Origin: Planctomycetia bacterium
GTDB taxonomy: Bacteria > Planctomycetota > Planctomycetia > Pirellulales > UBA1268
Direction: 5' to 3'
Assembly (NCBI GenBank): GCA_014192425.1
Contig: BJHK01000006.1
Location: forward strand, 1 to 64,000
DNA: 64,000 nt
Positions 11,960-13,752 of this stretch are shown piece after piece. A model generated the notes under the pieces. It was not told where the DNA came from and ran no database searches. It was given only the letters and a program-made list of their open reading frames with translations. Numbering within the stretch: position 1 is the stretch's first letter; each line of letters opens with the position of its first letter. Both the position numbers and the translations under genes were made by a program.

Positions 11960-13288
11960 TCAGCCGGGAAAACAGCGGCCAAAGGCCTGAAATCGGCTCA
12001 GGCCTCCCCGGACCCGGATGTGGCCCGTCAGGAGTGCCCAGACGATGCTCCGCTCCTTGCGCAGAAATCCCAGCCAGGACCGGGAGTCTGCGGTGACCGT
12101 ACAGTCGGGCTTGCCGATCAGGCCCCGCTGCACGTTCAGGGTTTGCTGCCTGATCGTCACGGTGGCTTCGGCTGGTTCCTGACCCGTGAAGATCAGGTGA
12201 TACACCGCATTGATGTCCTTCGCTCTTCCCCGCTGGAAGACGACGTGCATGGTGTCCAAGAAGCCGGCGATGGTGGATGGGCGGACGCCGTTGACATGGC
12301 GCTTCGTCTTGTGGGGAAAGGCTTGGGTCACGTAGTCGTCGGCATCTGACCCCGGCACGACATACACGGTCTCCTGTTTCTGTTGCAGGGGCTTCACGAT
12401 CCCGGCCAGAAACGCCGGGCGGTCGTCGAGAAACGGGGCCAGCACGTCTTCTCCGGCAGGGCACACGGAAAGACAGTAGGCGGCCTTGTAATTGGCACCG
12501 AAGCTCAGGCTTTGCCACATCGAGACCGACTCTTGATCGGTGACCTGCTTCCGATAGTCCTTGGCGCCGTGGCTGTCGGCCACATGCTCGACCCAGTCGG
12601 TGAACCCATGCAGAAACTCACGGTAGTTGTGCGTCATGCAGGCGCTGGCGTCGAAGCCGCCATCCGGCTTGATGGCCCCCACCGGGCATGCGGCAACGCA
12701 CAGCTTGCAGCTGACGCAGGGGTTGTAGTCGACGGGCCGCGACTCCTGGTCGACATCGATATCGACGAAGATCGTTCCCAGCAGAATGAAGGAGCCGAAT
12801 CGTGGATGGATGACGTTGCGATGCAGCCCCATCTGCCCGAGTCCCGCTGCCACGGCCACGGGCTTATGGGAAACCACCCAGATTTTTCCGGGAAACTCAC
12901 TCGCCTCCATCGGAAATCCCATCGGAGCATTCATCGCCCGGATCCCTCGGTCCTCGAGCCGGTGCACGATCGCCCGGGCCACGTCGTTGACGTGGTCACC
13001 GGAGCGATGGAACTCGAGATTGGCAACGGATCGGGCAGGGCTTCGGATCGGCTCCCGGTTCATCCGGCAGGCAAAGCTGATGAGAGTCTTCGCAGAGGGA
13101 AAGGCCTGGAGAACTCCCACTCTTTCCGCGGCGATGTCCGGCCGATCGATGCGGACGAAGCCGACATCATCAGCTCCAGCCTCCAGGCACATGCGGCGAA
13201 GTTCGTCGGCGGGCAGGGTAGTGGGCGCGGGCGGCCTCGTTTGGCTTCGGAGAGCCACGACGGACGGATGTTGGTCGAGCGAAGCCAC
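11960..13288 (-). CDS. 4Fe-4S ferredoxin/reductase with C-terminal SCP2 domain
   Basis: The reading frame is open to 13351, but AGGAGG (13300-13295) sits 6 nt before GTG at 13288, giving 442 residues. The N-terminal region resembles the cobalamin-independent part of epoxyqueuosine-reductase and reductive-dehalogenase-like proteins ([38 protein letters not shown]). The first cluster motif is [16 protein letters not shown] and the second is CLSVCPAGE, so two 4Fe-4S clusters are expected. The C-terminus ([18 protein letters not shown] onward) is an SCP2-like lipid-binding domain. It is divergent from an HxlR regulator, with a nested palindrome between them, so it is probably that regulator's target. 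The substrate is unknown. Confidence 0.75.
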
Positions 13289-13315
13289 CACGAGCCTCCT
13301 GGTTCTTTCCTCACA

Positions 13316-13353
13316 ACTTGCAAAACACAAGCGAAGGCTTGTATCTTGCAAGT
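13316..13353. promoter_or_regulatory. Nested palindrome and divergent promoter region, probable HxlR operator
   Basis: The outer arms ACTTGCAA (13316-13323) and TTGCAAGT (13346-13353) are perfectly inverted. Inside them is a second inverted pair, ACAAGC-gaag-GCTTGT. On the plus strand TTGCAA, 18 nt and TATCTT form a plausible -35/-10 pair, and a similar reading exists on the minus strand, so binding here would control both divergent genes. Assignment to the HxlR protein is by position. Confidence 0.6.
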
Positions 13354-13407
13354 GTCAGCGCTCGTGTCAAGCGGCATGAGAACCAGGTTCGGAAGCGAGG
13401 GCGGTGT

Positions 13408-13752
13408 ATGAAGATGGTGAAGCGTTCGGTATGCCCGGTCGCCTGTGCGCTGGATCTCCTGGGCGACAAGTGGACGCTCCTCGTCGTGCGGGACCTGGCC
13501 TGTGGCAAGATGCTCTTCAAGGAGTTCTCCGCATCCCCCGAGCGGATCGCCTCGAACATCCTCTCCGATCGGCTGGACCGCCTCGTCCGCTCTGGATTGG
13601 CCGAGTCGTTCAGCCCAACGCCAGCGACTGGTCGGAGCGGCTATCGCCTGACCCCGAAGGGCAAGTCACTGCTGCCGGTCCTCGGAGCGCTACGAGACTG
13701 GGGCCTTGCCCACATCAAGGGCACCGCGGCCCGGATGAAGCCCGTCATCTGA
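13408..13752 (+). CDS. HxlR-family transcriptional regulator
   Basis: This 114-residue winged-helix protein has the family signature CPVACALDLLGDKWTLLVVRDL, followed by FKEFSASPERIASNILSDRL and the wing GYRLTPKGKSLLPVL. The start at 13408 (MKMVKRSVCPV) places the conserved N-terminal cysteine 9 residues in; in redox- or aldehyde-sensing members this residue reacts with the signal molecule. It reads away from the ferredoxin-SCP2 gene, and a nested palindrome lies 55 bp upstream. Auto-regulation and control of the divergent gene are inferred from this arrangement. Confidence 0.9.
   Translation: MKMVKRSVCPVACALDLLGDKWTLLVVRDLACGKMLFKEFSASPERIASNILSDRLDRLVRSGLAESFSPTPATGRSGYRLTPKGKSLLPVLGALRDWGLAHIKGTAARMKPVI

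Follow-up and report, generated by a model that had tools for sequence, protein, structure and literature searches.

Comparison at the sequence level shows a divergent pair of genes, one encoding a regulator of the HxlR/DUF24 type and the other a class III cobalamin-reductase-like protein fused to an SCP2 domain, with two 17-bp dyads between them that we regard as putative operators. We consider it an even bet that the pair forms a self-regulated, two-gene module for reductive detoxification, and that the enzyme is placed under interchangeable, electrophile-responsive repressors. Such a module would combine repression by HxlR, thiol sensing, a cobalamin cofactor, a lipophilic substrate and reductive detoxification. 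The listings of full-text literature searches, whose reach leaves out most subscription journals, gave no description of the reductase family or of the HxlR-reductase pair.

In the window (the whole 64-kb stretch of DNA analysed), the reductase gene lies on the reverse strand (11960-13288; 442 aa, GTG start) and hxlR on the forward strand (13408-13752; 114 aa), the product of the latter matching PF01638 with 59 bits against a cut-off of 20.8 and being the only such match in its own genome (1 match). The genes are divergent, and the gap between them holds palindromic DNA (13316-13353), as the original prediction had it. The start proposed for the reductase, GTG 13288 set by AGGAGG, is also borne out: the ribosome-binding site (13295-13300, reverse strand) stands 6 nt ahead of the GTG, which aligns with the ATG of relatives (VASLDQHP in the window, MAKIDQHP in a relative). 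The pair and the palindromic DNA are conserved together at 10 loci, the window among them, and the original prediction thus survives its own refuting condition of a pair that is not conserved. The arrangement is not universal, and most members of the reductase family have a MarR gene instead. Further along the window, an 894-aa protein (16996-19677, reverse strand) combines an NAD(P)-binding domain with DUF2867 and with a long additional C-terminal region.

The C-terminal end of the reductase is an SCP2 domain (residues about 337-442; 11963-12280, reverse strand), scoring 21.5 bits against PF02036, where the cut-off is 21.3. By VIA-align, the C-terminal 105 residues match human SCP-2L (1ikt) with Z 14.4 and the SCP2-like end of Pisa1 (4av7) with Z 15.6, and C439, within the domain, is present in all 69 rows of the family alignment. 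In the alkyl sulfatases SdsA1 and Pisa1 an SCP2 fold (Z 14-16) is likewise fused to an enzyme for lipophilic molecules; unlike the reductase, these sulfatases are hydrolases with a metallo-beta-lactamase fold. An alkyl sulfatase (Lactamase_B, Alkyl_sulf_dimr and Alkyl_sulf_C), which also has an SCP2-like end, is encoded two genes away (7841-10048, reverse strand) and adjoins a DUF1254/DUF1214 protein, although the presence of two SCP2-type enzymes inside 6 kb may be chance.

The reductase family is large: of 594 candidate stretches taken from genome_contigs, at least 577 code for relatives, of which 80 loci were kept and joined by three from further genomes and two from plasmids in a neighbour survey of 85 loci. 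At the E-values used, matches occur in 8 of the 72 genomes of the taxonomic family and in 20 of 392 in the phylum, some of them partial. In two genomes of the same genus (G053 and G054; loci L006 and L007), whose reductase is 93% identical to that of the window, both contigs end at reductase residue 215, so that the two assemblies stop at one and the same point. In two other genomes (G024 and G025; L008 and L009) only about 80 residues of the Fe-S segment match, at 59-65% identity and contig-internal, and these fragments are possibly gene remnants. Three plasmid records carry the reductase, one from Nostoc and two from Priestia, and label it only as an SCP2 domain protein. A connection with phages was rejected after a search of 50,697 phage records gave no match. 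Because of its scattered presence and its plasmid copies, the reductase looks like an accessory, transferred trait.

These observations bear on the possibility that the reductase acts in ordinary metabolism on an endogenous lipid or cofactor (a quinone, polyene or terpenoid), its regulators following a metabolite and not stress. We think this unlikely. In its favour, SCP2 is found at E<=0.001 in 39 of 43 family members, and the Priestia plasmid copies adjoin SDR, FabF and MaoC genes. However, once regulators and apparent overlapping frames are set aside, even the most frequent clusters of neighbours reach no more than 17 and 10 of the 85 loci, and the accessory look of the gene also speaks against a housekeeping role.

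The core of the enzyme (residues about 24-307; 12368-13219, reverse strand) is RdhA/QueG-like, as judged from VIA-align Z scores and hhalign. Against a profile of 16 QueG proteins, hhalign gave 99.3% (E=5e-20, residues 30-233), and all 43 members match the QueG model at E<=1e-5. An AlphaFold model built from 69 rows (pLDDT 89.5, pTM 0.86) replaced an earlier, poor one from 43 rows (pLDDT 70.7). The original label of 'ferredoxin' thus captured a part of the protein, since a two-cluster segment is there, but the segment belongs to a larger fold of the cobalamin-reductase type. Because the N-terminal 300 residues share the reductive-dehalogenase/QueG fold, the proposal of a plain Fe-S protein that reduces the cargo of SCP2 had to be given up, and reduction would more likely take place at a cobalamin site, with two Fe-S clusters feeding it, than at a plain Fe-S centre. 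The class is described in the QueG structure paper as one without a distinct cobalamin motif (PMC4646009), and we infer cobalamin binding by the modelled reductase from its fold alone. The genome also encodes a B12-binding domain protein and, elsewhere (C3), a separate true QueG (331 bits, cut-off 200).

Conservation across the 69 rows delimits the two-cluster segment (12461-12718, reverse strand), with C191, C194, C201, C217, C272, C276 and H220 present in every row and C197 in 68. Seven of the eight QueG Fe-S ligand positions are kept, whereas the eighth (residue 269, assigned from the CxxCxxxCP order of the genome's own QueG) is Ala or Ser in all 69; H220 or C439 might stand in for it. Several other residues (R86, N90, E92, H94, W137, H141, K142, H156, R157 and H161) vary little or not at all. 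Known class III enzymes, as described, have a common tyrosine above the corrin (PMC4646009), but it appears to be missing from the alignment of this family, because no column before residue 188 holds tyrosine in at least 50% of the 69 rows. Phe occupies position 93 in all but one of the 69 rows (68 of 69), and position 100 is mostly Val; the mapping of these residues comes from motif order and hhalign, both of which give a non-tyrosine, while VIA-align reports ranges only. As the mapping has this basis, we limit our claim to a 'class III-like fold' and do not treat membership as proven. With the eighth ligand replaced and the tyrosine not conserved, the chemistry of the reductase may differ from that of known enzymes.

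Alternatively, the enzyme could be a catabolic, NpRdhA-like dehalogenase of halogenated lipids or phenols, induced by its substrate, with HxlR as a ligand sensor and not a thiol switch. Reductive dehalogenases, among them PceA and NpRdhA, are indeed its best structural matches (residues 11-307, Z 16-18): VIA-align gives Z 17.9 to 8q4h and 17.6 to PceA (4ur3), slightly above the 15.3 to QueG (5d6s), with about 10.5 to B12 chaperones (10.7 to CblD). A weak match to the dehalogenase model in 40 of the 43 members (E<=1e-5) and the scattered occurrence of the family would suit such a role as well. However, the window reductase scores 35.2 bits against the dehalogenase model TIGR02486 (cut-off 160.35), and it has an SCP2 fusion and a core that lacks the tyrosine column expected of known class III enzymes; on balance we find this reading improbable. 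Membership of QueG, the tRNA epoxyqueuosine(34) reductase, was rejected on similar grounds. Both proteins have a cobalamin-reductase fold at the N-terminus, and the reductase keeps most of QueG's cysteine pattern for two clusters, but it scores only 62.4 bits against TIGR00276 (cut-off 200), does not keep the active-site tyrosine of QueG's D-Y-H, and ends in SCP2, in a genome that has its own QueG.

The regulators found beside the reductase are of three kinds. At 57 of the 85 loci a MarR gene precedes the reductase on its own strand (within 200 bp at 47 of the 80 genome_contigs loci), HxlR is divergent at 8 of those 80, and the two never occur together among the 85 loci surveyed. One TetR cluster is present at 8 of 85 loci, three of them having it within 600 bp among the 80 from genome_contigs, and all four TetR proteins scanned (L038, L050, L067 and L094) contain TetR_C_13. 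Where at least 1 kb of upstream sequence was available, 16 of 73 loci had none of MarR, HxlR or TetR within 600 bp. At two loci (L096 and L103), besides the MarR gene upstream of the reductase, another from its cluster follows 154 bp downstream. On the reductase tree, the HxlR label falls in one main clade (seven HxlR rows and L040), in a pair (L051 and L054) and at L081. This requires three changes, two of them forced by starred branches, and therefore the regulator was gained, lost or moved more than once.

Each of the three kinds has a conserved cysteine, which in MarR is N-terminal and kept in 58 of 59 rows, and in the TetR proteins is kept in all eight. Conserved alike in HxlR, MarR and TetR proteins, it is suggestive of an electrophile signal, but is not proof of one, and each regulator's cysteine may merely mark its subfamily. 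The cysteine of the TetR protein at L067 aligns with that of CifR, a repressor described as being released from DNA by certain epoxides (PMC8244358). For NemR, a related repressor, a response to hypochlorite via Cys106 is reported, as well as one to some electrophiles (PMC8748444). The likeness of NemR and CifR extends to the TetR partners of some family members, with their TetR_C_13, at few loci only, and no such protein is found in the window. Since QueG acts by opening an epoxide, and a sensor of epoxides has its like among the TetR partners, our boldest reading is of a lipid counterpart of QueG. The family would then be an undescribed class III (Fe-S and cobalamin) branch, fused to SCP2 and deoxygenating lipophilic epoxides, around which three unrelated families of cysteine-bearing repressors (HxlR, MarR and CifR/NemR-like TetR) have been swapped. 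We regard this as a long shot, and a dehalogenase or a quinone/enone reductase would be as compatible with what we found as a lipid-epoxide reductase.

Returning to the regulator in the window, HxlR has a CPVAC motif (13432-13446, forward strand) whose Cys9 and Cys13 are both invariant in the ten partner HxlR proteins (10/10), while position +2 of CPxAC is V, I or L in all ten. An N-terminal cysteine at this position is common across the HxlR family. DUF24 proteins are described as sensing quinones, aldehydes and diamide through an N-terminal cysteine, and we take Cys9 to be that cysteine, the equivalence of residues being read off the descriptions (PMC8063818, PMC7835342). Like the MarR/DUF24 thiol sensors YodB, HypR, QsrR and B. 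subtilis HxlR, the protein combines PF01638, an N-terminal cysteine and palindromic DNA beside the gene. It differs from them in its second invariant cysteine, four residues on, and in its putative target, a class III-type reductase. In the account given of B. subtilis HxlR, formaldehyde is trapped by Cys11-Lys13, and such proteins can act as activators (PMC7835342); with V, I or L in place of Lys in all ten partners, sensing of formaldehyde by Cys-x-Lys was rejected here. The conservation of the HxlR cysteines does not prove sensing. Nevertheless, the redox or electrophile response that had been predicted fits a comparison in which these cysteines are invariant and the unrelated replacement regulators keep a cysteine of their own.

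The candidate operators were first seen as a nested palindrome. Its arms are real: the outer pair ACTTGCAA/TTGCAAGT (13316-13323/13346-13353) and the inner pair ACAAGC/GCTTGT (13327-13332/13338-13343) have a common centre within the 38-bp stretch ACTTGCAAAACACAAGCGAAGGCTTGTATCTTGCAAGT (13316-13353), and both are perfectly symmetric. No second pair of nested perfect arms (of at least 8 and 6, about one centre) occurs elsewhere in the 64-kb window, and none arose in eight of eight first-order Markov shuffles. It is, however, better read as two adjacent 17-bp dyads, because relatives hold separate, complete dyads. This tandem reading was drawn from the window and three loci of the same taxonomic family (L003, L004 and L005), which have a compact 17-bp dyad in the corresponding gap, before further loci came in. 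Scored over 14 positions of the 17-bp consensus ACTTGCA-N3-TGCAAGT, dyad 1 (ACTTGCAAAACACAAGC; 13316-13332), the proposed HxlR operator on the reductase side, matches at 11, and dyad 2 (GCTTGTATCTTGCAAGT; 13337-13353), its counterpart on the hxlR side, at 12. Their centres lie 21 bp apart, their outer halves are perfect and their inner halves decayed, and they are the only positions in the window that score at least 11/14. Within the set, few dyads have decayed as far as those of the window.

A dyad of at least 11/14 is present at all ten loci with a divergent HxlR gene, and two dyads at eight of the ten, including the window. The other seven (L041, L042, L043, L048, L051, L054 and L081) have dyads of 11-14 of 14 with centres 21-25 bp apart. 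L046, on the same contig as L005, has one dyad of 14/14 and a copy decayed to 9/14, and L003 (genome G012) has a single dyad of 14/14. In the 700 bp ahead of the reductase, 8 of 8 HxlR loci but only 1 of 95 others have a dyad of at least 12; the 95 include loci that may duplicate those of other genomes in the set. The sole exception, L040 (identical in sequence to L004, genome G009), is a rearranged relative of the ten HxlR loci. In G009 (L012, 3371-3535 and 6402-7727) hxlR no longer stands beside the reductase, a C-terminal piece of it, 55 residues long, is found about 2.9 kb away on the reductase strand, and the sequence diverges from that of G012 directly past the dyad; this displacement of hxlR is a rearrangement or a misassembly. 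Despite the perfect symmetry of the 38 bp in both arm pairs, it is very improbable that the palindrome acts as a single nested operator or, at the RNA level, as a hairpin (an attenuator or terminator), its likeness to dyads elsewhere being incidental, given that relatives have two complete, separate dyads, that the palindrome lies upstream of both genes and that a terminator scan of the region gave 0 matches.

The palindrome arms had further been predicted to overlap possible -35 and -10 boxes on both strands, and here only the hxlR side gained some backing. A consensus scan of 13250-13450 on both strands found no sigma-70-like boxes (0). In relatives, a -35-like TTGCAT/TTGCAA lies within dyad 2, and TAnnnT stands 17 bp beyond it in 8 of 10 rows (one base further on in L042). 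The window has a possible -35 of hxlR, TTGTAT (13339-13344, forward strand), which lies inside dyad 2, is homologous to the TTGCAT/TTGCAA of nine relatives and was not called by the consensus scan. At the position homologous to TAnnnT in eight relatives there is only a weak, degenerate TCGTGT (13362-13367, forward strand), the poorest -10 of the set. No conserved -10 was found on the reductase side among the aligned rows. Autorepression of hxlR would therefore be well motivated by the relatives and weak in the window's own letters, because the consensus scan finds no promoter there and the -10 reads TCGTGT. A wider HxlR regulon was rejected, because dyads with at most three mismatches occur at 26 places in the genome against 55 for a backward control, and no other clustered dyads were found.

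In the detoxification module that we favour, HxlR dimers would sit on both dyads, one beside each gene, repressing the pair. Attack by a reactive electrophile, probably a hydrophobic one, on Cys9, perhaps with Cys13, would make HxlR let go, and the reductase would be made. The SCP2 domain would then hold the lipophilic substrate, to be reduced by cob(I)alamin that is recharged via the two Fe-S clusters, in an active site unlike that of QueG or of the dehalogenases. In other clades a MarR or TetR protein, each with its own conserved cysteine, would fill the place of the regulator.

Among class III cobalamin enzymes, those with characterised structures are reductive dehalogenases and QueG; according to the QueG structure paper, there may be further families that are hard to recognise (PMC4646009). 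The SCP2-fused reductase is a widespread candidate for such a further family, and it comes with its own regulator and proposed operator. That three regulator families replace one another, all of them with a conserved cysteine, provides a comparative argument for an electrophile signal that is beyond the reach of any one genome. Furthermore, the regulator offers a handle on the substrate, as a compound that releases HxlR, MarR or TetR would point to what the enzyme reduces.
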